The notes under the pieces were generated by a model. That model did not search any database. It saw only the letters and a list, made by a program, of their open reading frames with translations, and had not been told where the DNA came from. Below, piece by piece: positions 449-43,825 of a stretch of 64,000 nucleotides of DNA. Source of the stretch: Symbiodinium sp. CCMP2592. Taxonomy: Eukaryota; Sar; Dinophyceae; Suessiales; Symbiodiniaceae. The stretch lies in assembly GCA_905221615.1 (NCBI GenBank), contig CAJNDT010001890.1, positions 1,728,602 to 1,792,601 of the forward strand, in the 5' to 3' direction. A program made the translations under genes and the position numbers. Positions within the stretch are counted from its first letter, which is position 1. Each line of letters begins with the position of its first letter.

Positions 449-474
449 ATGTTGACTTGCCTTGAGACCTTGCC

Positions 475-1009
475 CTTACCCACACGGATCGACTGCCCAT
501 CTCGGTTCGTGGACACCGTTGGCCGGGTGTCAGGTGCTGAGTCGATGGTACCTGGACCGCCTTGGGGCCAACGTGCCAGGGCAGTGGCATATGACACCCG
601 GGCACATGGGCTAAAGTGCCGGGTGGGGTGGTCCAGTGGTTGTGGCTTGATTTGTTCTCCCAACCAGGAGGGGAGGCCATCCATGCTTGTCACGTTAGTT
701 AGGGAGCCTTGCGACTTGGATCGACAGAGGCAGAGTGCCACCTTACCCACACGGATCGACTGCCCATCTCGGTTCGTGGACACCGTTGGCCGGGTGTCAG
801 GTGTTGTCGATGGTACCTGGACCGCCTTGGGGCCAACGTGCCAGGGCAGTGGCATATGACACCCGGGCACATGGGCTAAAGTGCCGGGTGGGGTGGTCCA
901 GTGGTTGTGGCTTTTTTATTTTTCTCCCAACCAGGAGGGGAGGCCATCCATGCTTGTCACGTTAGTTAGGGAGCCTTGCGACTTGGATCGACAGAGGCAG
1001 AGTGCCAGT
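475..1009 (+). repeat. Two tandem 267-bp repeat units, each ending in the motif
   Basis: Units 475-741 and 742-1,009 are nearly identical and each ends in GGCAGAGTGCC (729 and 996). Both contain the words TTGGCCGGGTGTCAGGTG and CACCCGGGCACATGGGCT. Related sequence reappears after the assembly gap at 36,600-37,790 in the same orientation. The unit is open on both strands for more than 100 codons, which reflects composition rather than a gene. Confidence 0.85.
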
Positions 1010-1398
1010 CGAGCCTCTCGAGGTTGCCTTACTTAAGTCCCTGCCCCATCGGGGTTGCTCCCCACACCGTTGGCCAGGTCTAAGTGTTCGGTTTGAATCC
1101 AAGCCTAGTGAACGCCTTCTCTTCCATTTCCTTCTCTCCCATCGGTCTTCATCGGCTTCCAGCCCATCGAGAAGTGGATGCCAACTGCTGGGATCTCAGC
1201 ATCAGCTTGCTTCAGCTACTTCCATTATTATGGTACAGTCCTGGCACCGAGGCTCATGACGAGGATCCTGAGGACATGCTGCCATCGCAGAGGACAAGCT
1301 GCCTTGCATAGTCAGTGAGCGTGTCATGTATCGCAACTTGCCGCTGCAGCAGTTGTGCTCGCTGTTGCCCTGCGTAATCTACTATAGTCGTGTTACAG
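1010..1398. other. Non-coding spacer related to the region after the gap
   Basis: Positions 1,005-1,090 match 36,638-36,735 well, including GGGGTTGCTCCCCACACC, in the same orientation. The rest shows no recognisable feature. It leads into the first copy of the tandem duplication. Confidence 0.5.
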
Positions 1399-1448
1399 CT
1401 GCTCTGTCTCTAGTCTAAGTCGTAGTAGGCCCCCCTGCAAGCCGGCAG

Positions 1449-1787
1449 ATGTCGTCGATGTCGTGGAGTGACAGTGAGTCTGTGGGCTCGGACTGGGTTC
1501 TGGTTGACGATGAGGGTGCAAGTACTGCGGGCTCGGTCGCGGACAGTGCTGACGACGATGATTATGTGATTCCGTTCGACGAGATGCTAGAGGAGTCCTT
1601 TTCGACATTGTGGATGTTTCTGGATTCTAAAGAGCGTGGGCAAGTCTTTCGAGCAGCCTTCCATATCAATGAACAGATCATGTTCGTACTGTTTCCGAGA
1701 CTTTTGCGGGATTTTAGGCAAGGCAGAGTGCCAGGAATTTTATATTTCAATGTGACAGACGAATGGCTGTCGTCACTGAATCAATGA
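1449..1787 (+). CDS. Small acidic orphan protein, copy A (112 aa)
   Basis: This 112-aa ORF opens with an ATG just after the duplicated leader. The N-terminus is Ser/Asp-rich (residues 1-45), followed by a more hydrophobic core with ESFSTLW and the motif-encoded GRVPGILY near residue 95. Its paralogue at 2,300-2,641 aligns over the full length at roughly 60-65% identity. By eye the differences are almost all amino-acid changing, while adjacent non-coding DNA is about 96% identical. Reading-frame retention with heavy amino-acid change suggests it is translated and under diversifying pressure. I do not recognise the family; no membrane segment or signal peptide is evident. Confidence 0.6.
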   Translation: MSSMSWSDSESVGSDWVLVDDEGASTAGSVADSADDDDYVIPFDEMLEESFSTLWMFLDSKERGQVFRAAFHINEQIMFVLFPRLLRDFRQGRVPGILYFNVTDEWLSSLNQ

Positions 1788-2299
1788 TTTGTCGTGTTTG
1801 TACAGCCTCCGCGACAGTATCACGGATCTTGGGGAAGGCAGAGTGCCGGGTTTGCGTGTGTTTAGGGGATTTTGAATTCGACGATCTAGCCAGCAGAGCT
1901 AGACTGTCCGATTTGAGACCTCAGCGGTAGTGTGCGCAACTTGGATTCAAAACGGTTACCCAGCATGACATGCTGACTACACAGTGCCGGGTGGCAGTGA
2001 TGTCCTCAGGACCCTGCTGTCTCCGAGGCTGGCTGCCTGCCTGCATAGTCTGTCAGTGAGTTGACTTGCACCATACATGATCGACATCTGCCGGCCAGAG
2101 AATCAAGCGATTCATGCATACTGATGTAACAGTAGTAACAAAATGTTACATATCATTGATTAATGTACTATATAGTGATGCATTAGTCACTGTTAATGTT
2201 TTAATCGTTGGACAATTGTGTGCTCGATGAAAGCAGTGATGCCGACGACCTGCTCTGTCTCTAGTCTAAGTCGTAGTAGGCCCCCCTGCAAGCCGGCAG
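1788..2299. other. Spacer of duplication unit A
   Basis: Non-coding. It holds one motif copy (1,837) shortly after the stop of copy A and is repeated at 2,642-3,088 with about 4% difference. An AT-rich stretch lies at 2,130-2,220. I see no further feature. Confidence 0.6.
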
Positions 2300-2641
2300 A
2301 TGTCGTCGATGTCGTGCAGTGACAGTGAGTCTCTGGACTCGGACTGGATTCTGGTTGCCGATGAGCGTGCAAGCACTGTGGCCTCGATCATGGACAGTGA
2401 CTACGATGATTATGTGATTTATTTCGACGCGCTGCTAGAGGAGTCCTTTTCGACATTGTGGTTCTTTCTGAATTCTGAAGAGCGTGGGCATGTCTTGCAA
2501 GTAGACTGGCATATCAATGATATGATCCTGCACGTACTCTTTCCGAGATTTATGCAGGATTACAGTGAAGGCAGAGTGCCAGGAATTTTATATTACAATG
2601 ACGTGCGAGACGAAGCTCTGTCGTCAATGATGAATCAGTGA
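2300..2641 (+). CDS. Small acidic orphan protein, copy B (113 aa)
   Basis: Paralogue of the gene at 1,449, with the same start context. It has an in-frame 2-residue shortening in the Asp run near residue 34 and small in-frame length changes near the C-terminus. Conserved landmarks are MSSMS, SDSES, EESFSTLW and the motif-encoded EGRVPGILY. Most other positions have changed. I counted more than 30 replacements against about three synonymous changes. That is the opposite of a decaying pseudogene, because no stop or frameshift has arisen. Function unknown. Confidence 0.6.
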   Translation: MSSMSCSDSESLDSDWILVADERASTVASIMDSDYDDYVIYFDALLEESFSTLWFFLNSEERGHVLQVDWHINDMILHVLFPRFMQDYSEGRVPGILYYNDVRDEALSSMMNQ

Positions 2642-3088
2642 TTCATCGTGTTTGTACAGCCTCCGAGACCGCATTACGGATGTTGGGGAAGGCAGAGTGC
2701 CGGGTTTGCGTGTGCTTAGAGGATTTTGAATTCGACGATCTAGCCAGCAGAGCTAGACTGTCCGATTGGAGACCTCAGCGGTAGTGTGCGCAACTTGGAT
2801 TCCAAAAGGTTACCCAGCATGACATGCTGACTACACAGTGCCGGGTGGCAGTGACGTCCTCAGGACCCTGCTGTCTCCGAGGCTGGCTGCCTGCCTGCCT
2901 GCCTGCATAGTCTGTCAGTGAGTTGCCTTGCACCATACATGATCGACATCTGCCGGCCAGATAATCAAGTGATTCATTCATACTGATGTAACAGTAGTAA
3001 CACAATGTTACATATCATTGGTTAATGTACTGTATAGTGATGCATTAGTCACTGTTAATGTTTTAATCGTTGGACAATTGGGTGCTCG
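2642..3088. other. Spacer of duplication unit B
   Basis: Non-coding copy of 1,788-2,249. It has a motif copy at 2,691 and a GCCT microsatellite near 2,890. It runs directly into the start of the phosphatase-like gene. Confidence 0.6.
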
Positions 3089-4387
3089 ATGAAAGCAGTG
3101 ATGCCGACGACCGTTTCAAGGTGCTCAGGGAGTTCCGAGGCAGAGTGCCAGACTTCTGCTGCTGACCATCAGAATCAGGCCAATCACATTGACCTTGGCA
3201 GTGATTACTGGAACGAAGCCGTGCAACAACTTCGGTGGAATTGTTTACACTGTGGCAGATCAGCTGCCGACTATACCACCGGGCTCCGAAAGATCCAAAG
3301 GGCTGCACAATTGGATCAACGAATCAAATTGGCAGTTGAGGCCATCTCAGATTTCGGAGATATGGATATGAAGTTGTACAAAGCATGGACCGGCCAGACA
3401 GATGTGCTGCCTGGGTCGATCCCGCCACCTCGGCCATGCCAGCATGATGTCGAGACGTGGCCCATGGATGATGTTTTGATTTACGACCATCCCCAGTGGC
3501 AACTGTTTGTTGGCAGTATTGGTTGCCCGATCCGATATGACCAGCTCCGGGTCAAGCCTGACATTGTCATCTCTATGAATGCAGATGACAGACCTCGGAA
3601 TTTTGAGCCATGGGACTGGTATCAGTATTTGGCGAATTGTGGACCGTTTGGCACTGCACATCTTCGGTATGGTGGCTGGGATCAAACACATGCCAATGAC
3701 TTTGATGCTGAACAAAGAAGTCATGAGTTCAAGACCATTTGGCGCCGCCTCATTTCAGATTTCAGAAAGATTATGATGTGCTGGCAGCGCTCAGCAGAGG
3801 AGTTCAGCCAGAGTCAAAGGCAGAGTGCCATCAAGGGCAAAATGATGGGCAAGGCCAATGGCGGCAGGGGCAAGGGCAAGACAATCAGCAAGGGCTACAG
3901 CGGCCCCTGTCAGGTTTCCAATCACATGCAAAGCCAGAAGGCATCGACGAAGGGCTCATTTGGCTATGGCTGCTCCTATGACAAGGGCTTCAGCAAGGGA
4001 AGTGACATGGGCAGCCTGTTCGGAAGAGCCGCTGAAGGAAGGCAGAGTGCCGATGGAAGGCAGAGTGCCTTGAAGGTGGCCGATGAGACATTCCCTGGTG
4101 AGCTCGGTAATGCTCTTGCTTTGTTGGAGGCGATGAAGCTTCAGGGAGGTGGTCGGAAGCGTGGAGGCAAGAAGAGGCCAATTCGTGTGCTTGTCCATTG
4201 CTACGGTGGCATTAACAGGACCTGTGCTGCTTATTGTGTCCTAGTCATGGCCTTTGCCTCGATGACCATGGAACAAGCCATTGTCAGGTGGATCAACCAC
4301 CGAGCCTACTATGCTCCATTCCGGGATCGTGAGTACATGATTGAAGCACTGCTGGAAATGCAGGATGAGCTGCACACGTACAGTTGA
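3089..4387 (+). CDS. Dual-specificity-phosphatase-like protein, domain split by a motif-bearing insert
   Basis: 432 aa. The catalytic signature VHCYGGINRT fits the cysteine-phosphatase P-loop H-C-x5-R-[ST], with Cys371 as nucleophile and Arg377. A likely general acid is Asp332 (VADET), followed by a helix ALALLEAM, as in the DSP fold. The earlier strand FVGSIGCPI (about residues 135-143) looks like the N-terminal part of the same domain. Between them, residues about 240-330 form a Gly/Lys/Gln-rich low-complexity insert that carries three R-Q-S-A motif copies. Family role: removal of phosphate from Ser/Thr/Tyr or other substrates; the actual substrate is unknown. The first codons lie in the end of the tandem duplication. 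A partial mirrored copy is at 35,484-36,271. Confidence 0.75.
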   Translation: MKAVMPTTVSRCSGSSEAECQTSAADHQNQANHIDLGSDYWNEAVQQLRWNCLHCGRSAADYTTGLRKIQRAAQLDQRIKLAVEAISDFGDMDMKLYKAWTGQTDVLPGSIPPPRPCQHDVETWPMDDVLIYDHPQWQLFVGSIGCPIRYDQLRVKPDIVISMNADDRPRNFEPWDWYQYLANCGPFGTAHLRYGGWDQTHANDFDAEQRSHEFKTIWRRLISDFRKIMMCWQRSAEEFSQSQRQSAIKGKMMGKANGGRGKGKTISKGYSGPCQVSNHMQSQKASTKGSFGYGCSYDKGFSKGSDMGSLFGRAAEGRQSADGRQSALKVADETFPGELGNALALLEAMKLQGGGRKRGGKKRPIRVLVHCYGGINRTCAAYCVLVMAFASMTMEQAIVRWINHRAYYAPFRDREYMIEALLEMQDELHTYS

Positions 4388-4731
4388 TCATCGACACTGA
4401 ACCCGAAGTCCATGGTCAAACAGTTCTGCTCCAATGAATGATTCTGAGCCGTCGAAATTTGTGTCCCGACACTGGCCCAGCCAGAGAGTCCTGGACCCGA
4501 CACTGGACTGCTGGCTGGAAGTGAAACACAGTCCTTACCTTGAAAAGGCTAATAGTTACATTCCCACTTTCAGCTGGCAGTCACAGCTTAATTCGTGCGT
4601 TTAAACCTGGCTGCCGGTGTTACTGACTGAGCTTAAAAAGAAAGTGAGATCATGCCCGTCTCGGTTGTGGAAACTGTCAGTTCCTTTGTCGGTTGTGCCG
4701 ACATGGTGATCAGGGCCGCTGGGGCGATTGG
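4388..4731. other. Spacer, possibly containing an intron of the next gene
   Basis: No motif copy and no recognisable element. A candidate acceptor (TGTTGCAG, about 4,831-4,838) lies a little downstream. That means the first coding exon of the next gene may begin near 4,839 rather than at the first ATG. Confidence 0.35.
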
Positions 4732-5493
4732 ATGAGTGAATCCAGCCGGCGACTCAGTGGGTGCAAATGTGACTTTAACAGTCAGTCTCCGGTGATTGTA
4801 ATGAGTGCTCATTTTTGCCTACTTGTGCTGTTGCAGCAGTCTGGTTCAGGTAAGGCAGAGTGCCCTTGTCCCAATTGTGCAGTGGGCAAGTCATTATCCG
4901 CCATGGAAAACACAGGGGCAGGCCGCCACCGCACTCAGCTGCAAGAGTTTTCAAATTGGCAGCTGACCAACTCATTGAACAACGCTCAAGCCCAAAGAAC
5001 AAGTCAGGTCGGGAAGGGAGCAGGAAAGCCAGGGCAGACTGCCACAGGGCAGAGTGCCACAGGGCAGAGTGCCAGCGCGAGCAAGGGCGATCTTGGCAAG
5101 GGCAAGGGAAAGAAGGGCAAGACCCCGATGCAAGACCCCAACCAGACCCTTCACACATACTTCATGTGCGTGGAGGACGTTTGGCAGGCAGTGGGCAGTG
5201 TGTTTGATGATAATCATAGCATGTGTTGATTGTGACTGTTTCTTACTGCTTGACTGGATGTCTCCCTGCAGATTCGCTGGGACTTCTTGAAAGGGAACGG
5301 CATCAGCGCTTGGGCGCAACCCGGTTCCTCGGAGACCAAAAACCATCCGCACTGGTCCTTGCGCCCCACGGCCCAGTTGGCCCTTGAACGCTACCAATGG
5401 TGGCCAGACAGCATTAGATGGCCACTCAGATGCAAGCCATGCTTCGACGCTACATTTATTTATTATCTTATATCTACGGATCTTAATAATTAA
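4732..5493 (+). CDS. Lys/Gly-rich two-exon gene of unknown function
   Basis: Proposed exons are about 4,732-5,187 and 5,272-5,493. Exon 1 is hydrophilic, with motif-derived KAEC (4,854) and tandem GQSATGQSA (5,048 and 5,063, spacing 15), then a GKGKGKKGK tract and the folded-looking HTYFMCVEDVWQ. An 84-bp intron with a GC donor (CAG|GCAG) and TGCAG acceptor would join VEDVWQ in frame to IRWDFLKGNG. A GT donor a few bases later is an alternative. Exon 2 is Trp/Arg-rich (HWSLRP, RYQWWP). The true start is uncertain and may lie in an upstream exon. No known domain recognised. Confidence 0.45.
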
Positions 5494-5593
5494 AACTGAC
5501 TAGAATCAAGTAGCAACTTCAACATGATCTCAGTTCAGGATCGATAAACAGGCACCGCCACTTTACCTGAAGCTGGAGCTCACCGGTGCAGGC

Positions 5594-5854
5594 ATGCAAG
5601 TGATGACGGAGAGAAGATGGCTCTATGCCTGTCATCAGGGCTGGGCGCGGGGGGCTGAGAATTTGACGCTGTGGGAAGGGGAAGTCCGCGAAGGTGAGCA
5701 ACTCTTGTGGACCACGACCATGGTGAGATTCGGTTACGACGAAGATGATCCGGAGGCCTGGAATGAAGAGCGTGTGGACGATGAGGAGGATTACAACGAG
5801 TTCGAGCCTGCTATTGTGCAAGAAAACATCCTGATGATGGACGGCGAATCGTGA
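5594..5854 (+). CDS. Small acidic protein (86 aa)
   Basis: Starts at ATG in GGCATGCAAGTGATG and ends just before a cluster of three motif copies. The N-terminal half is Trp/Arg-containing (ERRWLYACHQGW). The C-terminal half is very acidic (YDEDDPEAW, DDEEDY). The mirrored copy at 34,017-34,277 keeps the frame with one visible amino-acid change. It may be an exon of a larger gene, because an acceptor-like GGTGCAG lies immediately upstream. Function unknown. Confidence 0.45.
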   Translation: MQVMTERRWLYACHQGWARGAENLTLWEGEVREGEQLLWTTTMVRFGYDEDDPEAWNEERVDDEEDYNEFEPAIVQENILMMDGES

Positions 5855-6980
5855 GAAAAAAGAAGGGCAGAGTGCCTTAAAAGGCAGAGTGCCAAAGGCA
5901 GAGTGCCCAGAATTGGACCATTCAGTGAGTGGCAAATTCCAACATCAATTTAATTTACAGGCCAGGACAGTGACGAAGGCAGAGTGCCAGGTGGGTCAGG
6001 CTTCGTCGACTGACTCTTCTCAAGTTTTTCAGTGCCGATGTCTGCTCATGTGGACTTCTGCCTGCCTTTCGCACAGCAACAGGTTATTTGTTTGTGGTGC
6101 AGGCAAACCAACAAGTCATGATCAAAGTTGTGAGTGTTTTGGAGAAGGCCTCGTCGCTGTCAGAGTAGTGCCTCCAGAAGAGCATTGCTTGCTGCAGAAG
6201 CAAAACTGTGAGTGCTGAGACTTCTGAAGACCGAGCACTTCTGAGTTCTGTTGGATGTGTTGGGTTTGCGACTGTGCTGAGAGAGTCTGAGTATGAATGA
6301 AAGTGACCATGCAAGGTTTGGCCGTCAGCTGGCGTCTCCAGACCCCAGGATTGCTGGTCATCGGTGCTGTTCTTAGCTTCCGATCATGCTGCTTCTGCGT
6401 TGCCAAATTCAACTTAGCATTCTCGGGCTTCTGAAGTGTCATGTCATGATTGTTTTGCCTATGGCTTATGATGGTTGCTCAGGTTTCAAATGTTGCTGCA
6501 GTGGTCCTTGAATCATGGCATATGGCAGATTTGAATATCAACACAGCCCTTGAATTAGGTTTCATTCGTGTGCTAAGCTCCCGATCATGCTGAGTCTGTC
6601 TGGCCCCTCAATTAAGTTAAACTCCGTGTAGCTGCTGCTTCAATAAAAGTGTCATGTCATGATTATTCTGTCGATGGAGTTGCTCAAAGTGAAGTGAGTC
6701 GTGGTCCTTGAATGATGGCATATGCATGATATTTAATGTCAATGTGAGCATAATATCAAAATATAGTTGATATAATTTAAATTGTGTCAAATACTAGTAA
6801 CTATAATCTAACAACACATTGACGTCAGAGGTAGTATATCATTTCGACATTATAAGGCAGAGTGCCGCCTCGCCATTCTTTGCAGAGTGCCTTGAGCTGG
6901 ACTGAGAAGGCTGAGTGCCTGCATCTGGCTGGACAAGGCAGAGTGCCGCAATCTGGCTGGACAAGGCAGAGTGCCGCAGG
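5855..6980. other. Long spacer or 5' leader with motif clusters and a diverged 200-bp duplication
   Basis: Three motif copies at 5,866, 5,883 and 5,897 are spaced 17 and 14 bp, not multiples of three, so this is not coding. Another is at 5,978. Positions about 6,372-6,540 and 6,572-6,740 form a diverged direct repeat sharing GATCATGCTG, GTGTCATGTCATGATT and GTGGTCCTTGAAT. AT-rich sequence follows at 6,740-6,850. At 6,920-6,975 two 28-bp units containing the motif precede the start codon of the next gene. The 28-bp spacing also argues that translation begins after them. Confidence 0.6.
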
Positions 6981-9900
6981 ATGACAGCGCCTGTGCATAC
7001 GAGTCCGCTTGGTCAGACGTTTTGGGCCAATGTGCGAGCCGGCAACATCACCTGTGAGTTTTACGAACAACAGCTGGATGGATCCTTGCAGATGGGTCCG
7101 AATTATCCCTGGCCGATCAAAAAACCTCTAGACTACTATGTCACAGCCTTCGGTGAGGTCCGCCTGCAATTCCGCGTGAGAGGCGGGAAAGGATTCAAAC
7201 AGTGCAAGTGTGAATGGAAATACGTCGGTCATGGAATGAATCGGGACTCAATGATTGCGAGGATCCCACAGCCGTGGGTCATCGACATTCTGAAGCTTCT
7301 GCGCGAGCTCAGGATTCCTCGGTCTGAAAGGCAGAGTGCCGAAGTCCTCAAAGCCTCGGAAGTCGCAGCAGAGGCCCTGAGACTGGTGGATTCTATTCCT
7401 GAAGATGCTCTGGACTTCAATAATCGGACAGATCAGGTGCACCTCTGTGTCAAGCTGCACAGGCCACTCGCAAAGGATGAAAAAGAGTGTGGAAACCAAT
7501 TTGACTGGCGTTTTCTGCAATCTCGAATGTTCACAACCCACTGGCAATCGTTTCCTGTCCCGCTCGCTTTCGACTTGAAAACCTTGGTCACCCATGCCTC
7601 GGGCGTAGTGGCACCGCGGATGAGAAAATCGGTGATCGTCACAGAAGCCAAAGGCAACGGGACGACTGTGGGAGCCTTCCTCAACCAGAGGTTTTCCGAC
7701 CCAAGCAAGTTCCCAGAGAAAGAGACCATGCTGATCCTCTTCAAGCTGTTCAAGTTTGTCTTGAAGCTACAAATGCATACCCTTAGGCTGGAAGGGAGTC
7801 TTCTGGGGGACCTCCATGAGAATAACATTACTGTCATGGGAGGCAGAGTGCCGGACCACAAAGGCAGAGTGCCAGTGGGGGCGGAGAATTTGACGTTTGC
7901 CTTGGTGGACTGCTCCGGTTGCCTACCAATTAGTGAGGTTCCCGCAAAAAAGATGAAGGGTCACCTCAACTGCTTTCTGAGCTTCTGGCAAATTCCCTCA
8001 AACCACAGCGCCACCGTCTCCGAGTACGCGTCACAGGTCTGGAAGAAGATGCTTGCTGCTGGCGAAAAATTCAAAACGGACTATGGACCGAATAAGTGGA
8101 GAGTTGGTGAAATGGTGTCCGATCTGTACAAGTTGTGCAAGAATCTGGAAGCAAAGTTCCAGCAGGGTCTGGACTTGATGCAACAATGCCAGCAAATGAG
8201 GGTCGAGGCAACAAGGGCAGTAATGAGCAGAATGCAGCCGCAGGCACTTGCGCCGCCGAATCCTCCGCCAACACCTCAGTGTTGGGATTCGACACCTCCC
8301 TGGGATCCCCCTGGATCTGCGACTGCAAAAGCCAAAGGGATGAAAGGAGGAGTGCCAGTAGAAGGCAGAGTGCCAGGCAAAGGCAAAGCAATACATCATC
8401 CTGATGGGACTCCTCCCAGGGGGGCCCGCCCGCCTTTGCATAAACCGCCTCAGCAAAAGGCGAGGCCTCCTGCTCCGTGGCAGGTGCCAGTAAGACCGCT
8501 GCGAAATGCTGGGCCTCTGCCTGATCACCCTTGGCAGCAGGAGTGGGAACCACTTCCTCCTGGCAGGGTGCAACCAGATCATCCTCCTCCTGGCAGGGGG
8601 CCGGTGCAACCAGATCATCCTCCTCCTGGCAAGGGCCCGGTGCAACCAGCTCATCCTCCTCCTGGCCACCAGCAGCAGCAACATCGCTGGGGCAGAACGG
8701 CCAGAATGCCCGTCATCCAGGACGAATACGATGCCTGGCATGACGATGAGCCGAATCCCGAGCCGAATTCCCGGCCAAGAGTGCCAGAGCCGATGGGTCC
8801 CCCGCCGGCAAAGCAAGGCAGAGTGCCAGAGCCGATGGGTCCCCCGCCGGCAAAGCAAGGCAGAGTGCCAGATCCCGAGCCGAATCCCCCGCCAAGAGTG
8901 CCAGAGCCGATGGGTCCCCCGCCGGCAAAGCAAGGCAGAGTGCCAGAGCCGATGGGTCCCCCGCCGGCAAAGCAGCCTCCTGCCAAAAGGAAATTCGGCG
9001 ACGGACAGCCTGTGCCTGTTGGTTCCAAGCCACAGTTTATGTCGGCAAGTGCTCCTGCTGAAATGACGGAAAAGCAAAGGATGGACGAGCAGGATTTCGC
9101 CAAGGAACTTGCCGAGTATGCTGACGATACGGCAAGAGGCTCCAATTTCGTTCCGCAGGGCCGACGCGCTGAGCCGGCCTGGGTGGCAAAGGCCCAGGGC
9201 TTGAAAAGCAAGGGCGACGCCGTCCCGATCGGGAAAGCAGCTTACTTCGCCCAAAAGGGCAAGCCTGCCGGAAAGGGCCACAAAGGCAGAGTGCCAGTGG
9301 AGGACAATATCCCTACTGACCTTGTTGGAAAGGGCCGTCCAGCCCTAGTGCCACTTGTTGGAAAGGGCCGTCCCAATATCCCTACTCACCTTGTTGGAAA
9401 GGGCCGTCCAGGCGAAGCTCATCCTGCTTTTTTGCGGCATATGAAGACGGAGAAGGGAGGAATATGGTTGGACCCCAAGGAGGAGGTGGAAGCCGAGGAG
9501 GAGGACACTTTGGTTGATGTTGTGGTGGAAGAGGAGGAGCCTGTGCAAGATCCGTCGGACGATGAAATGGAATTTGTCGAGGTTATGGTGCAGGATGAGC
9601 AACCGCCGCTTGAGATGGAGGCGGAGCCCGACCCGGATCGCTTGGACGAGGATGAGGGTGACAGCCAAGCAACAATGGTACTAGGGGACCATCTCCGAGA
9701 GGAGCAAGATGAGCCGATGCCTTCTGTACCGGAGACCCGGGTGACTGAGAGCGAGCACGATGCCGTCGTCGCCAAGGTCATGAACGAGCTGGAGGCTATG
9801 AATGTGGACCCGAGCCCGAAGGCTGCCGCAAACCCCAAGAGTGCGACTGCGCCAGTGCCTGGAGAGGTGAAGCCTTTCTTGGAAGCGGAGGAGGACCTCG

Positions 9901-11941: not shown

Positions 11942-12001
11942 GGTCAGCAATGATCCCTGAACCCTCCCCCCACAAAGCCTAGATAAGCCTTACTGACTGA
12001 G

Positions 12002-27866: not shown

Positions 27867-27926
27867 CTCAGTCAGTAAGGCTTATCTAGGCTTTGTGGGG
27901 GGAGGGTTCAGGGATCATTGCTGACC

Positions 27927-34277: not shown

Positions 34278-34377
34278 GCCTGCACCGGTGAGCTCCAGCT
34301 TCAGGTAAGCTGGCGGTGCATGTTTATCGATCCTGAACTGAGATCATGTTGAAGTTGCTACTTGATTCTAGTCAGTT

Positions 34378-35483: not shown

Positions 35484-36271
35484 TCAACTGTACGTGTGCA
35501 GCTCATCCTGCATTTCCAGCAGTGCTTCAATCATGTACTCACGATCCCGGAATGGAGCATAGTAGGCTCGGTGGTTGATCCACCTGACAATGGCTTGTTC
35601 CAGGGTCATCGAGGCAAAGGCCATGACTAGGACACAATAAGCAGCACAGGTCCTGTTAATGCCACCGTAGCAATGGACAAGCACACGAATTGGCCTCTTC
35701 TTGCCTCCACGCTTCCGACCACCTCCCTGAAGCTTAATCGCCTCCAACAAAGCAAGAGCATTACCGAGCTCACCAGGGAATGTCTCATCGGCCACCTTCA
35801 AGGCACTCTGCCTTCCATCGGCACTCTGCCTTCCATCAGCGGCTCTTCCGAACAGGCTTCCCATGTCACTTCCCTTGCTGAAGCCCTTGTCATAGGAGCA
35901 GCCATAGCCAAATGAGCCCTTCGTCGATGCCTTCTGGCTTTGCATGTGATTGGAAACCCGACAGGGGCCGCTGTAGCCCTTGCTGATTGTCTTGCCCTTG
36001 CCCCTGCCGCCATTGGCCTTGCCCATCATTTTGCCCTTGATGGCACTCTGCCTTTGACTCTGGCTGAACTCCTCTGCTGAGCGCTGCCAGCACATCATAA
36101 TCTTTCTGGAATCTGAAATGAGGCGGCGCCAAATGGTCTTGAACTCATGACTTCTTTGTTCAGCATCAAAGTCATTGGCATGTGTTTGATCCCAGCCACC
36201 ATACCGAAGATGTGCAGTGCCAAACGGTCCACAATTCGCCAAATACTGATACCAGTCCCATGGCTCAAAAT
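35484..36271 (-). CDS. Right-arm copy of the phosphatase-like gene, cut by the assembly gap
   Basis: C-terminal part only (about 262 residues). The catalytic VHCYGGINRT and the acidic residue before it are kept. Its 5' part would lie in or beyond the 100-N gap. The sequence on the far side of the gap does not encode it. Changes from the left copy include Gln to Arg, Met to Ile and Met to Leu. Confidence 0.7.
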
Positions 36272-36371
36272 NNNNNNNNNNNNNNNNNNNNNNNNNNNNN
36301 NNNNNNNNNNNNNNNNNNNNNNNNNNNNNNNNNNNNNNNNNNNNNNNNNNNNNNNNNNNNNNNNNNNNNNN
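36272..36371. other. Assembly gap of exactly 100 N
   Basis: A run of 100 N, the size commonly used for a gap of unknown length. It coincides with the end of the right palindrome arm and interrupts the phosphatase-like copy. Confidence 0.99.
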
Positions 36372-37903
36372 CGCCGAAGCAAACCAAGTCTCCGGGATCT
36401 GTTACATCGCAGGTGTGCCAAATGGCCTGCTGAGCATCAGCTGCGACGGGATCCGGCACAGCGCTGTCATCTTAATTCATTCCCTGTGAGCATGGCGACC
36501 CACCTTGGCCGAGTGGGGTGGATTTCAGCAAATGGGGGAGGCCGCTAACCCATGATTAGTCTATATCTCTTTCTGCTGAGCACATGCTTTCTGTTCTCTT
36601 GGATCGACGACAGAGGCAGAGTGCCGAGGCAGAGTGCCAGTCGAACCTCTTCGGTGTTGCCTTACCTAAGGAGTAAACCCCTGCCCCACCAGGGTTGCTC
36701 CCCACACCATTGGCCATGTGTGAGGCGTTCGGTTTGCCTGTGTCACAGCCTTGAGGCCAACCTATCCCAGGGGCAGGGGGTAGATGACAGCCGGGCACAT
36801 GGGCTAATGCGCCGGCTGGGGCTGTGACCTGGTGACATCGAAGCAGTCATGCAAGTCACCGGAAGCAATACCGGACAAAGAAGGGAGGCCGTTCTTGGGA
36901 CATGGCTGTGTTGTTGAGCTGGTGTGTTCCTCCGTCTCATTCATAGTAGAATGTTGTTTTGTTAGCCAGTTGTTTAAGATTATAGTGAATTCTTTGTCAC
37001 ACCAACCTTACCAACAAGTCGCGGTGTGTCCAGTTTTGATTCACCAGCCGCGCTTGCATGCCGATGGCCGGGCATGGGTTGTCACACGGACCTTACCAAC
37101 AAGTCGCGGTGTGTCCAGTTTTGATTCACCAGCCGCGCTTGCATGCCGATGGCCGGGCATGGGGTCGCTTTGGGGGACCGTGGAAGACGGAACCGAACGA
37201 GGACTTGGGGCCAACCACCAGAGCGGACACCTGGTGATGACAGCCAGACACATGGGCTAACGTGCTGGCTGGGTCCGAGCTCGGCACCCGAGTGTCCCCC
37301 TTTGCAACATGGGAGGCCAAATATCGAGCAGAAGTACAGTAATTAGAGTGTCAGTCGACCCTCCTCAAGGTTGCCTTACCTAGCTGGATTTTCTGCGACC
37401 TCGGATCGTGTTGTCCGGGCCAGACTTCCAGGTTCCGAACAAAGAAGGGACGCCGTCCGTTCTTGGGACATGGTTGTGTTATTGAGCAGAGAACCTTGCT
37501 TGGCTTGCTGTTCGGTTGTGTTTGTCGAAGGCAGAGTGCCAACATGTTCAGAATGGGGTTTGGTGTGTGTTGCTCTACCAAGCGGCAGCTGCATGCCCGC
37601 CAATTTGGCAGCTACCGACACACTGTTGGCCGGGTGTGGAGCCAGGGAAAGGGCCCCAGGGTCGTGCAGTCTAGGGGGGGGTTGGGGCCAACGGTCGGCG
37701 GGCATCCGACCATGACATCTGGACACATGCGCTAACGTGCCAGGTGGCCCCTCCCGAAAATGACGAAGCCCGGGTGACCCGGACTCTTCCATGGGAGGCC
37801 GAAGAATGGTGTTGCTTGCGCATGGTGTTGAAGTCCAAGTTGTACTTGTATCTCAACTATTTATTGAAGTGAACGAATCGCTCTTTGACTTGCCAGCTCA
37901 GGT
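36372..37903 (+). repeat. Repeat-rich spacer related to both the left edge and the palindrome centre
   Basis: Positions 36,600-36,840 resemble 990-1,090 and 560-620, with two motif copies 13 bp apart (36,615 and 36,628) where the left edge has one. Positions 36,946-37,000 match 19,188-19,244. Positions 37,006-37,090 and 37,091-37,165 are an 85-bp direct repeat containing AACAAGTCGCGGTGTGTCC. A third, more diverged unit runs to about 37,790 with a motif copy at 37,530. Positions 37,790-37,903 may hold an upstream exon or intron of the next gene, since an acceptor-like GCTCAG precedes it. Confidence 0.65.
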
Positions 37904-40777
37904 GTGCCTGAGTCCAGCTGTGACGAGTGGCAGCTTCGAACCAATCGGTTGTACCAGGAGAGAGCTATCACTGCTATGCAGCACTGTCGACAAATCAACT
38001 TCATCGCCGATGGGTCTACTCACAGCACCAGCGATTGTCTTGTGACAGTGGCTTGGGCGAATGAGATTTCTGCTGCAGTGTTTGCACCCATGCAAGTGAT
38101 GAAGACTGGACAAGTTTCTCCACAAGACCGGTTTGACGACGACCTGCTTCTTCACATATCAAAGCGAAAGAAGCTGGAAAGGATTGCTGCATTCAGGCAG
38201 CTTCAAGCGATCAGTCACCAAATCTGGATTTTGCACAGAGGGCGAATGGATTTGGGCTCTTTCAAGATCGCCCCCTCTCTTGGGCAGAGGCCTGTGAAAA
38301 GATATGAAAGCAGGGTGGTTTTCCAAGTTGGAAAAGAAGACAATGACATTGACCGCTGTTTTCAGTGGTTGAGGGACAATCCGGATCCGGCTGAAGGCAG
38401 AGTGCCAGAAGGCAGAGTGCCAGAAGGCAGAGTGCCACCAGCTTTTCCTCATGTCTCCTTTCTGAAGACAATGTCTGAGGATGGAGAGATCACAAATGTG
38501 CTCCCCGTCTTGCCAGAGTCAGAGAAGTGGTGGCTGAACATTCCACTGCTGGTCTTGGGCCTTGACCAGGGCAGCATCGGACTTGCTGGCATGGCCTATG
38601 CTATGCGTGAAAACATGATTCATGTGAAATGTGACAAGATTCACAGGGCCATTCGAGATTTCAAAAACAGCATGTCGAGATGCCTCAAAGGACTCTTCCT
38701 GAAAGCACAACTTCACTCCTCTTACATCTTTGCCCTGAATTATAAACCCTTTGGAAGTGGTGGTTTCTACCAGCAGAAGAAGGAAATGCTGGCGAGTTTT
38801 GTTTCCTGCACATCACCGAGCAGAAGCTTGTTGTGGGACGCTTTTCGAGATAAGATTGCCTATGACTTAGACAGGCAGCGATCCGGTGACGAGCATGAGA
38901 TTGAACATATGCTTGCAAATGTCGAATCCTTCATGAAGAAGGGCAGCTTGGTGAAATCCTCCAGATGGTTCAGCTGGAACCAGCTATGTTGTGAGCAACT
39001 TCATGAGTTTCATGTCCTCAAAATGCTGCTGGCTGATCATTTCGGTGAAGATCAATCTTTCAGCCCTTGCTCAAGGGAAAGACTCAGACTGTATTCCAAC
39101 TCGGCGAATACACAATCGGGCAAGGAGCTCTTCGAAGGCAGAGTGCCAGAGTCCGAAGGCAGAGTGCCGGACTCTGACAATGGTGAGAGGCAGGAAGATG
39201 CACTGGGTGATTTGCAAAAGCTGTCACAGGCTGGTCGTGCCACTGATCCACGGAAAGAACTCAGCTTGTTGAAAGCCAGCATGGGGGGCTTCAAGTTGGC
39301 ATACTATCTCATGACAGAAGACCTTTTCGATCACTCCAAGATATTGTACAAAGTGACCGAACCGTTGTGGACATGGTATGGGAAACAAGTAAAAAACGTT
39401 AAATCGCCGCAGGATGGTCGAGGTTATGCCGAGTTGATGACAGTGAATGATGCCTGGAAAGCAGACAAACATTTGTTGCAGATTGTCTCCAACCTGCAGA
39501 AGACCGAGTTGTGGAAGGAGCATCTGGATACTGATTTACACGAGCCCGCAGAAAAAATCATGATGTTGAGCTTGCATTTGCTGATGAACAGGGTCTGGAC
39601 TTGCAGTCTTTTTTCACTTCCACCAGATGCCTATGCGGGATTGCTGTCACCTGATGCAGAAATTCGGACGATCACGGCTTTGAAGGCAAAGGGCCATCAC
39701 ACATCACTCTTGAGGTTGGAGTCGACATTGGCACGGTCCACTCCAAGTGTTCATGCCCGGCAACTCTTCACAGACCTGCAAGTTGGAATCAGCCATCCTT
39801 CGAGACTTTTTCTGGACACATTGGAGGCACAGGGATATGAAGTGGCGCCTCCGGGGTCAGAAGACATTGTCGTGGATGATGTTGACACAGAGCAGGACGG
39901 GGAGATGGAGGATTCTGTGCCTGAAGAAGCAGATGACGGTGCCGGAGTTGGTGACATTTTGTTAGACGGGCAAGAGGGCAGAGTGCCAGCTCAAAGGACT
40001 GTAACAATATCGGTACCAGCATGCCCTGCAACCCACCTGCTGAGTGTTCTGGTGCAGACGCTGCCAGACAACAAGATTGTGGAAGATGTGCACAACAAGA
40101 TTCGTAATGATTCTTTGTTGAACAAAACCCGCAAGCAAACATACTCCACGATTCAAACTGTGATCGAGAATTCAAACGTCTTTGAAAGCCGTTCAATCAG
40201 GCATCCGGCAAAAGTCAAACGGGAATATTTTGAAAGGGAGTTTTGGAATGTGGACAGGAAGCGCCAAAAGTTGTGCTTCAGAGGATGTGTCCACAAGCTG
40301 CCGTCACAGTATACCGAGATTGTCGGCGACAAGACATGGAACACCCTGTCAGAAGAGACACTCGAACGAGCATCAGCTGCGTGGTCATGGCTAATTCACT
40401 ACAATGATGCAAGACTGGCATCTCAGCATGTTCCCTTGCGTGCTGGGAAGTTTAGCAGCCTTGCAGCCCCTTTGAAGATCTTGAACCATGTCTTGGATTT
40501 GACATGCTATCTCTCTCTTGGGGCAAAAACCTGGGCTGCTCTCATGTGGCCAGTGGTCCAGCATGAGGACCAGTCGACAGGAGAGATATATTTTGTTTTG
40601 AAGGCAGAGTGCCCGGATGGTTCCAGCGTCAAGGCCTGCTGGATTCATTTGTATGAGCCCCAGTATTGGGAAGTCATCGAAACAGAGGCAGTCTTCTGGA
40701 ATGGCTTCATTTGCCTCCGTCGTTGTGCTACAAGCTCAGTGTCACTTCTATCCTATATGTTGCAGCATCCCAAGTGA
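37904..40777 (+). CDS. 957-aa protein with faint hAT-transposase-like motifs
   Basis: Long uninterrupted frame. The first codon is GTG after an acceptor-like CAG, so the N-terminus is probably spliced. Features in order: FIADGSTHSTSD (Asp36), LGLDQGSIGLAGMAYA (Asp221), C-x3-H at Cys243/His247, and SSRWFSW (Trp355). That order resembles hAT transposases (first Asp, second Asp followed by small residues, C-x2-H, then a T-R-W motif), but spacings differ and the C-terminal dimerisation block is not seen. Motif copies are read as triple EGRVP (38,396-38,436), EGRVP twice (39,137, 39,158), EGRVP (39,977) and KAEC (40,603). An acidic patch lies near residue 660. It may be the mobilising enzyme of the block, or an unrelated orphan. 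Confidence 0.6.
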   Translation: MPESSCDEWQLRTNRLYQERAITAMQHCRQINFIADGSTHSTSDCLVTVAWANEISAAVFAPMQVMKTGQVSPQDRFDDDLLLHISKRKKLERIAAFRQLQAISHQIWILHRGRMDLGSFKIAPSLGQRPVKRYESRVVFQVGKEDNDIDRCFQWLRDNPDPAEGRVPEGRVPEGRVPPAFPHVSFLKTMSEDGEITNVLPVLPESEKWWLNIPLLVLGLDQGSIGLAGMAYAMRENMIHVKCDKIHRAIRDFKNSMSRCLKGLFLKAQLHSSYIFALNYKPFGSGGFYQQKKEMLASFVSCTSPSRSLLWDAFRDKIAYDLDRQRSGDEHEIEHMLANVESFMKKGSLVKSSRWFSWNQLCCEQLHEFHVLKMLLADHFGEDQSFSPCSRERLRLYSNSANTQSGKELFEGRVPESEGRVPDSDNGERQEDALGDLQKLSQAGRATDPRKELSLLKASMGGFKLAYYLMTEDLFDHSKILYKVTEPLWTWYGKQVKNVKSPQDGRGYAELMTVNDAWKADKHLLQIVSNLQKTELWKEHLDTDLHEPAEKIMMLSLHLLMNRVWTCSLFSLPPDAYAGLLSPDAEIRTITALKAKGHHTSLLRLESTLARSTPSVHARQLFTDLQVGISHPSRLFLDTLEAQGYEVAPPGSEDIVVDDVDTEQDGEMEDSVPEEADDGAGVGDILLDGQEGRVPAQRTVTISVPACPATHLLSVLVQTLPDNKIVEDVHNKIRNDSLLNKTRKQTYSTIQTVIENSNVFESRSIRHPAKVKREYFEREFWNVDRKRQKLCFRGCVHKLPSQYTEIVGDKTWNTLSEETLERASAAWSWLIHYNDARLASQHVPLRAGKFSSLAAPLKILNHVLDLTCYLSLGAKTWAALMWPVVQHEDQSTGEIYFVLKAECPDGSSVKACWIHLYEPQYWEVIETEAVFWNGFICLRRCATSSVSLLSYMLQHPK

Positions 40778-40883
40778 CATGTTTTCATTTAGGATTCTGT
40801 CAACTGTCGACCCATACAGTAAATAGTACAATAAACTTATATAAGTTTTGCTGTGCTTGTTTTTGCTGACTCGACTGAGGGAA

Positions 40884-42071
40884 ATGTCACAAGCATGTCG
40901 GACTCTCGCAGACTGCCAGAATCTCGCCGAGCATGTGATCTCCCAGACTGGAAACGTAGACGAAAAAAAGCGAAAGGAGCTGCAACGAATGCGCCGTCCA
41001 AAGCTCATGAGCCTGATCGCTTCTCATCACCTTCCGGAAGATGAGGATTTCATGCGCAAAATTGAGGCTATGTATTCGACAGCCAAAGATTCAACAGAGG
41101 ATGAGGATGAGGATGACATTATCATGGGGGACTTTGTTGATGAGCTGGTTCTTGACGACCTGCTTGCTGAGGACAAACAGGAATTTAAAATGGTCTCAGA
41201 CGCAGTCAGAAAACGCAGAATCAAAAGGGTGCATCAAACCTGGCAGGCCATCAAGACGCAGCAAGCAAAGGCCAAGGCAAAGGGCAAGGCCAAAGCAAAG
41301 ACCAAAGCAAAGGCCAAGCCACAGGCCAAACGGAAAGCCAAGAGAAAGATTTGTCGCCCACGTATGTTGCCCAGGAAGCAACCCGCGCCTCCTGATGAAA
41401 GTGGTCAAGAGGGAGCAGAAGGCAGAGTGCCAGCACCTCCTGCTGAGGTGCCGGTGGAGCCGGAGCCTGATAATCACGTGGAGGCCGCGGAAGGCAGAGT
41501 GCCAGCCCCTCCTGCTGAGATGCCGGAGGTGCCTGCTGCAATCCCTGTCCCAGAGCCTGATGATCACGTGGAGCCCGAGGAAGGCAGAGTGCCAGCCCCT
41601 CCTGCTGAGATGCCGGAGGTGCCTGCAGTGCCTATCCCAGCACTCGAGCCACGGGAGGTTGCAGTCCGTGGCCCCCAACATCAGCGGCGGCCGAACCGTG
41701 TTGACTACCAAGGGGTATGGACACCTGTTCAATGCCCGGAGTGTCCCAAGATCGCTGGTGAGATGAAGTACGACCCGAATCCTGGTGGCCCTGACAAAGC
41801 AAAATGGTTTCTCCGAGTTCGTGTGACAGACGGCGGTCTCTTGGAAAGATTCGGAACATTTGTTATAGCTTCGATGTGGTTGCCTGATCTGCTGTGTGTT
41901 GTGTCACATTACATGAACCCATGTGTGTCTGGCATTGAAGGCGAGTGGAGCCACCTCGTACCCTATCACTGGGGACGTGTGGCTTCCAAGATGACAGAAG
42001 CGCAGGCCAGACAACACGTCATTGACCATAGGCCCTGTTGTGGCCCGACCAGGAGGCCTGGCAACAACTAG
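40884..42071 (+). CDS. Lys/Ala-rich and Pro-repeat protein (395 aa)
   Basis: The first good ATG is at 40,884; the frame is open 12 codons upstream. The N-terminal 100 residues are helical and charged, ending in an acidic stretch (EDEDEDD). A tract of Lys/Ala/Gly (about residues 130-165, KAKAKGKAKAKTKAKAK) resembles those in the RING gene and could be a nuclear or nucleic-acid-binding tail. Three repeats follow, each EGRVPAPPAE plus a Pro/Glu linker (motif at 41,421, 41,493, 41,583; spacings 72 and 90). The C-terminal 130 residues look folded, with paired cysteines (QCPECP) and Trp/His. No family recognised. Confidence 0.6.
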   Translation: MSQACRTLADCQNLAEHVISQTGNVDEKKRKELQRMRRPKLMSLIASHHLPEDEDFMRKIEAMYSTAKDSTEDEDEDDIIMGDFVDELVLDDLLAEDKQEFKMVSDAVRKRRIKRVHQTWQAIKTQQAKAKAKGKAKAKTKAKAKPQAKRKAKRKICRPRMLPRKQPAPPDESGQEGAEGRVPAPPAEVPVEPEPDNHVEAAEGRVPAPPAEMPEVPAAIPVPEPDDHVEPEEGRVPAPPAEMPEVPAVPIPALEPREVAVRGPQHQRRPNRVDYQGVWTPVQCPECPKIAGEMKYDPNPGGPDKAKWFLRVRVTDGGLLERFGTFVIASMWLPDLLCVVSHYMNPCVSGIEGEWSHLVPYHWGRVASKMTEAQARQHVIDHRPCCGPTRRPGNN

Positions 42072-42351
42072 AGGATTCATCCTGCGCTGCAAAGAAAAGT
42101 TGTGTGTCTGTCTGTGTGCTTGCATTGATGGCAGCGGGTCCTGCTAGATTGGAATGCGTCCGAGAGACTGTGTGTTTCTGCTTGGGGAAGACGGATTGCG
42201 AAAGCATGTTCGCATTTTCACACATGTGGAATTTGTCACGTGCAAGCACATGGACAATCATTTCGAGTGCCACAACCCGGAAGCCGCACAAACTAGCACA
42301 TGTGGTTTGAAGCCGTGCGTGCTTGTGACTGAACAGTAGCCGTCCAGAGCA
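42072..42351. other. Short spacer
   Basis: No motif copy. Nothing recognisable; it may contain an intron joining the flanking reading frames. Confidence 0.3.
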
Positions 42352-42837
42352 ATGCATTTCGCCCCGATCGAACGAGGAGAGTGTTTCTTCAGAGGCGAGC
42401 TCTCCCCAATCTTGATCAAAACCGCTTGCGAAAAATTGGCCAAAGCGCCTGACCAGTGGAAACCAGCTGAGAGATGGAATGAAGTTTATGACGACGTGCC
42501 TTGGGAAATCATGGTTCGCTACCTGCGTTACTGGCCACGTATTGGCTCCCGCATTACAGGAGGCCTCAGGCTTCTTCGACGGTACCAAGGCCCCTTCCCG
42601 AAGTGTTATCAGGTGGGTGAAGGAGAAGAACCGCTGGAGTTGCCGCGCGTTTCTCTCGTTTGTGATTTTGTTTATGTTTGGAACGACGAAGATGAACAAC
42701 AACGGCAGTTTGTCCTTCAGATGAAACACCTCTCACTTGTTGCCATCCGTCTCGGTGGTCCGGGGGAACTTCCTGACCTTGATGCTGGAGCAATACCTTT
42801 GACCGACCAGCTGAGTGCAAAGTTGGGGTGGCAATAA
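42352..42837 (+). CDS. Orphan protein (161 aa)
   Basis: ATG start in GCAATGCATTTC. Composition is that of a globular protein, with no low-complexity tract and no motif copy, unlike its neighbours. Segments include WEIMVRYLRYWPRIGSR and LVCDFVYVWNDEDEQQRQF. It ends in TAA 23 bp before two closely spaced motif copies (42,860 and 42,883, 23 bp apart, so non-coding). Family not recognised. It is the last credible gene before the gene-free right compartment. Confidence 0.55.
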   Translation: MHFAPIERGECFFRGELSPILIKTACEKLAKAPDQWKPAERWNEVYDDVPWEIMVRYLRYWPRIGSRITGGLRLLRRYQGPFPKCYQVGEGEEPLELPRVSLVCDFVYVWNDEDEQQRQFVLQMKHLSLVAIRLGGPGELPDLDAGAIPLTDQLSAKLGWQ

Positions 42838-43023
42838 TTAATGGATCTTGAGGCGGGAAGGCAGAGTGCCAGCAGCTGGGAAGGCAGAGTGCCAGACGTT
42901 GTCGCGTCACCCAGCTGTACCCTGCTTCGCCTGCACGTGATTCGCTTGACAGTGTGGTCAACGCAGAAAAGCGCAACATCCAGCAGTTCGTAGCCACTTC
43001 ACGCGATTTGTGCATCCCTAATA

Positions 43024-43825
43024 CTATCAAACCCTAAAACTATGGCACTCTGCCTTCTAGCCCCAAACCCTAAATACTAAAGACCCTGAAACTCTAACCC
43101 TAACCCTTTCATTACCCTCAAACCCTAACACTATGGCACTCTGCCTCCTAACCCCAAACCCTAAATATACTAAAGACCCTGAAACTCTAACCCTAACCCT
43201 TTCATTACCCTCAAACCCCTAATACTATGGCACTCTGCCTTCTAACCCCAAACCCTAAATATACTAAAGACCCTGAAACTCTAACCCTAACCCTTTCATT
43301 ACCCTCAAACCCTAACACTATGGCACTCTGCCTGCTAACCCCAAACCCTAAATACTAAAGACCCTGAAACTCTAACCCTAACCCTTTCATTACCCTCAAA
43401 CCCCTAATACTATGGCACTCTGCCTTCTAACCCCAAACCCTAAATATACTAAAGACCCTGAAACTCTAACCCTAACCCTTTCATTACCCTCAAACCCCTA
43501 ATACTATGGCACTCTGCCTTCTAACCCCAAACCCTAAATACTAAAGACCCTGAAACTCTAACCCTAACCCTTTCATTACCCTCAAACCCCTAATACTATG
43601 GCACTCTGCCTTCTAACCCCAAACCCTAAATATAATAAAGACCCTGAAACTCTAACCCTAACCCTTTCATTACCCTCAAACCCCTAATACTATGGCACTC
43701 TGCCTTCTAACCCCAAACCCTAAATATAATAAAGACCCTGAAACTCTAACCCTAACCCTTTCATTACCCTCAAACCCCTAATACTATGGCACTCTGCCTT
43801 CTAACCCCAAACCCTAAAGACCCTG
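43024..43825 (-). repeat. Satellite of nine 91-94-bp units, telomere-like, each with one reverse motif
   Basis: Each unit combines CCCTAAA-like words, ACCCTTTCATTACCCTC and ACTATGGCACTCTGCC. The motif starts at 43,044, 43,135, 43,229, 43,322, 43,414, 43,508, 43,600, 43,694 and 43,788. It is oriented opposite to the neighbouring genes. Small indels (ATATAC, ATATAA or none after CCCTAA) distinguish units. This is the last place in the window where the motif occurs. Confidence 0.95.

Follow-up and report, generated by a model that had tools for sequence, protein, structure and literature searches.

A giant transposon and its repeated word

We analysed a stretch of 64,000 nucleotides from the dinoflagellate Symbiodinium sp. 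CCMP2592 (GenBank assembly GCA_905221615.1, contig CAJNDT010001890.1, positions 1,728,602 to 1,792,601 of the forward strand). This whole stretch is called the window, and coordinates refer to it unless a contig is named. An earlier reading made from the sequence alone had noticed an 11-bp, nearly palindromic word, GGCAGAGTGCC, in about 115 exact copies. The whole set of words lies in one transposon, which the sequence-only reading did not recognise. As assembled, this element occupies 44-44313 (plus strand) and matches contig C1 (1146665-1190172) in pieces at 98.7-99.4%; both ends coincide and the flanks beyond 44-44313 differ between the window and C1. Its terminal inverted repeats (TIRs) are ~52 bp long, the left one (44-97, plus strand, beginning TCCTTAACCCTTTGCGCCGAACCAG) pairing with the right one (44262-44313, beginning TCATTGCCCCTTTGCACCGAACCAG on the minus strand). 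Genome-wide, there are 644 candidates for the left TIR and 656 for the right, and the best 40 scored of each were at 100% in 40/40 cases. The target-site duplication CTTAA, read by eye, adjoins the element on both sides (39-43 and 44314-44318). A 5-bp duplication fits 6/6 insertions for which both ends were read (window, C1, C458, C462, C305 and C358); the duplicated sequences are CTTAA, TATAT, TCAGA, TTAAA, TAGAA and CTAAA, of which TATAT lies inside a TA repeat (C1), so that its length is not certain. Given these TIRs and target duplications, the carrier of the word is one giant TIR (class II) DNA transposon.

The size of the element has to be corrected for its assembly. Positions 3600-36271 form one large inverted repeat (98.9%), whose right arm (20028-36271, minus strand) is an inverted copy of 3600-19838 and ends at a gap of 100 N (36272-36371). 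At its own N gap, C1 holds a tandem copy instead of an inverted one. The inverted duplicate is probably an assembly artefact, and the tandem copy in C1 was likewise taken as an error. The non-duplicated content consists of 44-19838, ~1 kb missing here (C1:1154565-1155570) and 36372-44313, ~28.7 kb by addition; this figure is a sum of pieces and not the length of one gap-free copy. End-to-end distances elsewhere are 17.4 (C458), 32.2 (C358), 33.9 (C462) and 35.3 kb (C305). Several other contigs hold the gene for a 350-amino-acid (aa) protein repeatedly, at spacings that vary, which together with the inverted duplicate at the N gap makes scaffolding at this repeat look unreliable.

Three probes were used to estimate the size of the family. 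An internal 24-mer has 237 exact copies genome-wide, a 53-aa piece has 265 candidates (best 150 scored), and the 350-aa open reading frame (ORF) has 374 candidates, of which the best 116 scored were all (116/116) 98-100% identical and free of internal stops. These counts suggest a family of roughly 240-270 near-identical copies, which to judge by this near-identity has probably been active recently. A multi-gene transposon family of ~29 kb is documented in what is possibly the genome of a coral-reef symbiont.

The abundance of the word is far beyond chance. The window holds 116 exact copies, in agreement with the earlier figure, against a mean of 0.06 and a maximum of 1 in 100 dinucleotide-preserving shuffles. 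It is the commonest 11-mer of the window; outside the word and its flanks, the next-ranked 11-mers belong to a local AATCTTATTG array and none of them exceeds 36 copies, which shows that such abundance is not a property of arbitrary 11-mers. Because 41/116 copies fall in the inverted duplicate, the count of 116 is inflated: without it, the element contains 75 exact copies, 65 on the plus and 10 on the minus strand. A genome-wide count, which the sequence-only reading had proposed as a check, gave 20,442 copies (9,890 + 10,552) versus 244 for the word read backwards, in 1,098,105,373 bases and 5,383 contigs. As 237 elements with 75 words each account for 17,775 copies, or 87% of all, even before elements with a changed 24-mer are added, the genome-wide number mostly reflects amplification of a ~29-kb transposon and not ~20,000 insertions of the word.

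Outside the element the word is rare. Sampled host DNA (six 10-kb pieces of other contigs plus the sequence flanking two insertions) has 0 copies in 167 kb. The word is preceded by C or T in 0/75 copies of the element and in 439 genome-wide, versus 127 for the reversed control. This background, ~3.5-fold over the control, is not fully explained; among the first 100 places listed, such words are mostly single, some lie inside copies of the element, and there is no sign of a second population resembling the words of the element. The word GGCAGAGTGCC is thus private to one giant TIR transposon family, directional, and present in ~75 exact copies per ~29-kb element.

The word consists of a GGCA/TGCC dyad around GAG, which makes it nearly its own reverse complement, and its fuller form is AAGGCAGAGTGCCA. 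The 65 plus-strand copies are preceded by AA (57/65 and 61/65 for the two positions) and followed by A in 47/65; beyond these bases the flanks are unrelated. T follows in only 2/65, and the extension to a 6-bp stem (AAGG..CCTT) claimed earlier holds for very few copies. Matches to GGCA-NNN-TGCC comprise 65 with GAG, one with GAC and one with CTC, the last being the minus-strand word itself. The fixed GAG spacer indicates that the word is read directionally and not as two symmetric half-sites, and rules out a symmetric dimer site with a free spacer. A function as an RNA hairpin was rejected, as the flanks do not favour the fold (mean pair probability 0.32 versus 0.35 with shuffled flanks). Without the duplicate, there are seven one-mismatch copies, all plus, and 13 two-mismatch matches (8 plus, 5 minus) where simple arithmetic predicts ~6.5. 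Tandem copies are spaced by 13, 14, 15, 16, 17 and 18 bp, which adds 14 and 17 bp to the units already described. By reading, no stop codon occurs within the 11 bases in any of the six frames.

Genes of the element and the position of the word

Gene limits were taken from ORFs, two genes with a hand-placed intron and one doubtful gene (5519-5854); they were drawn from the DNA letters only, and some starts may be a few bases off. The plus strand was taken as the gene strand on account of the longest ORFs. Minus-strand ORFs overlap genes; the longest (416 aa, 8031-9281) overlaps the large gene described below.

The first word stands at 729-739 (plus). At 5866-5907, three plus-strand copies separated by TTAAAA and AAA begin 12 bp past the stop of the open stretch 5519-5854, a guessed gene that is absent from the ORF list and is overlapped by a 138-aa minus-strand ORF. 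Three exact and two one-mismatch copies (6856-6975, plus) precede the ATG at 6981, which was chosen as the start of the large ORF (6981-10796, plus), although the frame is open from a GTG at 6915. This ORF carries nine in-frame exact copies, eight of them read as GRVP, and two copies lie between its GDLHENNI and VDCSG motifs, which we take to be kinase-like. A 75-bp (25-codon) in-frame unit with the word is present in 6/11 sequences of the large ORF, these being the window and ten others picked for unusual ORF length. The putative gene 12002-13625 (plus), defined by reading across a hand-placed GC-AG intron and ending in what is presumably a RING-like domain, has three exact in-frame copies and another 29 bp past its stop.

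The only exact minus-strand copy outside the right-end satellite lies at 14693-14703, in a gene-free stretch: there is no ORF of at least 100 aa at 13651-15068, and the longest stop-free stretch in 13901-15060 has 95 codons, on the minus strand. It adjoins AATCTTATTG decamer arrays (14123-14585), whose length varies between copies of the element. The next ORF (15069-16112, plus) has four in-frame copies, three of them spaced by 15 bp as EGRVP repeats, and a further copy 41 bp past its stop. Two copies at 17582-17608 (plus) begin 13 bp past the stop of ORF 16412-17569, and the 350-aa ORF used for the family count (18126-19178, plus) contains two exact and one one-mismatch in-frame copies. A site at 19665-19675 (plus), with the 14-bp unit AAAGGCAGAGTGCC, is polymorphic in copy number: 16/21 readable copies of the element have one unit and 5/21 have two, one of the latter (L113) lacking one base; a 22nd aligned copy is not readable there.

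Beyond the gap, two plus-strand copies spaced by 13 bp (36615-36638) stand beside a structured-RNA-like unit. A 957-aa ORF (37904-40777, plus), a candidate transposase by position and size only, has seven in-frame copies, and a 407-aa ORF (40848-42071, plus) has three copies as EGRVPAPPAE. ORF 42352-42837 contains no copy and is followed by two (42860-42893, plus), the first 23 bp past its stop. A 94-bp satellite of 8.5 units (43027-43818, minus strand) with nine exact minus-strand copies adjoins the right terminus. The sites named earlier (genes, leaders, spacers, in-gene repeats and satellite) are confirmed to the extent that ORFs indicate genes.

The orientation of the word is strongly biased. 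Relative to the ORFs taken as genes, 65/75 exact and 7/7 one-mismatch copies have the same orientation, and the ten minus copies are all found in two gene-free stretches, nine in the satellite and one at 14693. Density is nearly the same in coding (2.50 per kb) and noncoding DNA (2.39 per kb), with 25 or 26 noncoding copies depending on gene limits. The sequences around the copies are unrelated, the exceptions being the satellite and a few duplications within the element. Close pairs are in excess (18 gaps of at most 60 bp, 8.7 expected, p = 0.001), and once these are collapsed the 47 resulting clusters are more evenly spaced than by chance, as measured by the coefficient of variation (0.62 versus 0.85, p = 0.007).

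Placement relative to genes is also non-random. Seven of the 17 noncoding clusters start within 60 bp past a stop codon, where 1.38 are expected (p = 0.0001); within 30, 100 and 150 bp the numbers are 4, 7 and 9 (p = 0.004, 0.003 and 0.001). Without gene 5519-5854 the result is 6/17 (1.31 expected, p = 0.0009), and when genes are restricted to the 13 listed plus-strand ORFs it is 5/15 (1.14 expected, p = 0.005). Start codons show no upstream enrichment, with two clusters within 60 bp (1.13 expected) and three within 150 bp (2.69 expected). A copy lies inside or within 60 bp past the stop of 14/14 genes; random placement of the 47 clusters gives a mean of 10.9 and reaches all 14 in 1.5% of cases, and under the stricter gene lists, the 13 listed plus-strand ORFs among them, the same test gives 13/13 (p = 0.03). 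Coding copies are read through in frame: of the 40 that lie in long ORFs, the frame used gives GRVP in 28, QSA in 8 and AEC in 4 (p = 2e-6 for GRVP, a value that treats copies as independent, which tandem copies are not).

Possible function of the word

Orientation is the strongest clue to mechanism. Insertion blind to orientation should leave both orientations of a word that is nearly self-complementary and free of stops in any frame. The word runs one way in all definable genes, often near their stops, and is reversed only in gene-free DNA, a pattern that recognition on the sense RNA fits best. We tentatively favour the reading that the word acts as a recognition word on the sense strand of the RNA of the element, and put its probability at roughly 0.38. 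The fixed spacer, the equal density in coding and noncoding DNA, the even spacing of clusters by coefficient of variation and the absence of the word from 167 kb of sampled host DNA also count in its favour. Every definable gene presents the word in its coding sequence or just past its stop codon. The reader could be an RNA-binding protein encoded by the element, or a small RNA with a complementary sequence; it would tell transcripts of the element from those of the host and pass them to separate handling (export, stability, 3′-end processing or translation). Short units duplicating in tandem would supply at least some of the new copies, which would be kept where they are helpful and leave the reading frame unbroken. 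In a more specific version, which we consider improbable, the ~65 sense words would tag all transcripts, and the ten reverse copies (at 14.7 kb and in the satellite) would be loci for a short antisense guide RNA, pairing over ~14 nt and directing these transcripts to one shared fate, for instance licensed expression or escape from host silencing.

Several observations weigh against recognition on the sense RNA. Among 21 family copies of the 350-aa region, the word changed five times in 1,155 positions, where 5.3 changes are expected, and three longer comparisons gave 1, 0 and 3 word changes versus 2.2, 1.7 and 3.3 expected. Recent copies thus show similar rates of change in the word and in the sequence around it, and no recent constraint. 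The stop-codon test was chosen after the sequence had been seen and its gene limits were set by hand. Clusters 1837 and 2691 are a duplicated pair, and when the latter is removed together with gene 5519-5854 the enrichment falls to 5/16 (1.24 expected, p = 0.006); these checks with stricter gene lists weaken the evidence from stop codons. Largest-gap tests of even spacing were not significant (p = 0.32 for raw copies, 0.09 for clusters), and the flanks do not promote the hairpin that the word could form in RNA. The ORFs taken as genes, chosen by length, all have the same direction; only the two reverse-facing loci can therefore separate sense orientation from polarity of the whole element. In favour of the reading, an older constraint is weakly suggested by five diverged duplications inside the element, in which 2/77 word positions differ versus 112/1,170 others (one-sided p = 0.02); the word is the starting point of some of these alignments, a bias towards agreement at its positions. 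The diverged family member L123 (~4%), with 1/55 word positions changed versus 42/1075 others, is too close to judge constraint.

The word could instead be recognised in DNA, a possible reading that we hold on balance doubtful. A DNA-binding protein encoded by the element would bind the word along the whole element, whether to bring the two ends into synapsis, for organisation or silencing, or as a self mark. A GGCA/TGCC dyad is typical of protein sites; clusters are fairly evenly spaced across coding and noncoding DNA alike, and copies pointing inwards flank both ends (plus from 729, and the nine-copy minus satellite at the right terminus). CACTA transposons offer a precedent, as TnpA-like proteins have been proposed to act at their subterminal motifs (PMC2613891). 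However, the polarity switches at 43.0 kb, which is the end of the last gene and not the middle of the element, and the other gene-free stretch holds the second reverse locus. The asymmetric spacer is fixed, and noncoding clusters are enriched just past stop codons, neither of which speaks for a DNA site.

Alternatively, the word may have no function. A unit of 13-18 bp would multiply by slippage and templated insertion, be tolerated, and be frozen when the element was amplified. The variable tandem number at 19665, the excess of close pairs, the 75-bp in-frame unit in 6/11 sequences and the lack of recent constraint all agree with such a micro-repeat, which we nevertheless regard as unlikely: 65/75 copies have one orientation and the other ten are confined to two gene-free stretches, although the word is stop-free in six frames; spacing is fairly even and copies are placed past stops; and one-mismatch copies are few (7 versus 75), unlike a repeat of mixed age. 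In the related proposal of the sequence-only reading, the unit itself multiplies. What stands of it is that the word is sharply bounded, penetrates genes and changes in tandem number (site 19665). An independently mobile mini-element is poorly supported, because 65/75 copies are plus, the ten minus copies are confined, and 167 kb of host DNA contain none. Selection on the EGRVP peptide is very improbable: the preference for the GRVP frame in 28/40 long-ORF copies speaks for it, but 25 noncoding copies at equal density and 12/40 copies in other frames largely refute a peptide function. Hardly any credence is left for the count being an artefact of misassembly or of one large duplicated unit, the latter possibility having been raised by the sequence-only reading. 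The 41/116 copies in the inverted duplicate at the N gap did inflate the count, and the bulk of the genome-wide total is due to amplification of the transposon. With the duplicate set aside, the ~75 copies per element lie in mostly unrelated flanks, which refutes descent of these copies from a single duplicated unit, and two insertions with different target sites (window and C1) have the same content.

If the word is a self-label, on RNA or on DNA, it would show how a selfish element in a dinoflagellate nucleus separates its own molecules from those of the host, and a 14-nt bait carrying it would be a ready probe for the reader molecule.

Comparison with known systems and further features

We know of no transposon in which a single exact word runs through genes, gene flanks and spacers, mostly in one direction. 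DNA uptake sequences of Neisseria and Haemophilus are words of ~10-12 bp in high exact copy number, in and between genes, that mark self DNA; unlike them, the present word occurs in one transposon family of a eukaryote, at ~2.5 per kb and with strong strand polarity. Rickettsia palindromic elements are inserts of ~100-150 bp with a long hairpin, which sit in frame in numerous genes but are not limited to genes. The parallel with them drawn earlier holds for a palindromic insert that is in frame within genes and also occurs outside them, and not otherwise: the Rickettsia elements have about tenfold the length and are dispersed through a bacterial genome, whereas the word is confined to one transposon in nearly fixed orientation. 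With an 11-bp word, tandem units of 13-18 bp and flanks that do not favour a hairpin, identity with a Rickettsia palindromic element was rejected.

A study of CACTA (En/Spm) describes a 20.5-kb TIR transposon with repeated subterminal motifs proposed to be bound by a protein of the element (PMC2613891). Both are large TIR transposons and have a short repeated word with arrays near the ends. The CACTA word is subterminal, in direct and inverted orientation, and forms stem-loops; the present word is spread from end to end of its element, genes included, and most copies point the same way. A CACTA identity is rejected, as the termini are TCCTTAACCC and TCATTGCCCC, not CACTA, and the target duplication has 5 bp, not 3 bp. 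Polintons and polinton-like viruses are similar in being multi-gene, tens of kb long and multicopy in protist genomes. Their hallmarks (capsid, packaging ATPase, PolB) were not found in nine ORFs of the element compared with Pfam and PHROGs, a set that leaves out the intron genes and several small ORFs. Dinoflagellate introners resemble the word as short sequences spreading within genes; they are introns spread over the genome, whereas the present word stays translatable within coding sequence and is limited to a single family of elements. In passages of a 2024 review of dinoflagellate genomics (PMC11453091), the string 'palindrom' is unused and 'DNA transposon' occurs once. A literature search of limited depth, covering few subscription papers, found no description of the word or the element, and the letters GGCAGAGTGCC appeared in published texts only in unrelated contexts, as judged by title and the start of the abstract.

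Database searches were largely negative. None of the nine ORFs reached the Pfam cut-off, the 432-aa ORF having weak sub-threshold phosphatase matches; a tenth protein in the Pfam comparison is encoded beyond the element. PHROGs gave one weak match (E 0.03, of unknown function), and the Protein Data Bank (PDB) no usable match (one at E 0.46). The 957-aa ORF had no match in Pfam, PHROGs or PDB, a single-sequence model of its first 450 residues was unusable (predicted local distance difference test, pLDDT, 33), and a search for relatives in viral contigs gave one pattern match and none confirmed. Rfam returned 12 weak matches at E up to 1, none near its gathering score. A paired-word pattern occurred in 1 stretch of viral and 51 of prokaryote contigs, judged unrelated by their flanks and by having 2-10 words per stretch. 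In Clostridia-type contigs, a longer dispersed palindrome, GGACGGCAGAGTGCCGTCC, was seen that by reading is REP-like (repetitive extragenic palindromic) and shares the 11-mer only as its core (Oscillospiraceae and Clostridia metagenome-assembled genomes; L039, L043, L045, L047, L048, L055, L062, L064-L066, L072, L073 and L080).

Four genes of the element look like cargo by our reading of their motifs: 3089-4387 with a phosphatase-like HCYGGINRT, 16412-17569 with a methyltransferase-like FLEIFAGQGNL, and the kinase-like 6981-10796 and RING-like 12002-13625 described above; Pfam supports none of these readings above its cut-off. A structured-RNA-like unit was found seven times per element, two of these being near-duplicates (478-650, 743-915, 36695-36845, 37085-37290 and 37570-37775; L010:7356-7530 and 6840-7040, minus). 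It has 33 consensus pairs, 23 of which show at least one compensatory change in the seven sequences, and conserved CTTGGGGCCAAC, ATGACA and ATG-GCTAA; by reading, a hairpin loop GTTGGCC is complementary to GGCCAAC and may form a pseudoknot. The window copies gave no Rfam match at E up to 1, and the unit may represent an RNA class not yet described. Host DNA (44400-64000 and the other sampled stretches) is very rich in telomere-like CCCTAAA words, with 157 occurrences of AGGGTTTAGGG in 167 kb; such words are also present next to the left end of the element and in its satellite. The 21-nt dinoflagellate spliced leader has 429 exact copies genome-wide, with 0 for the reversed control, which marks the genome as that of a dinoflagellate.

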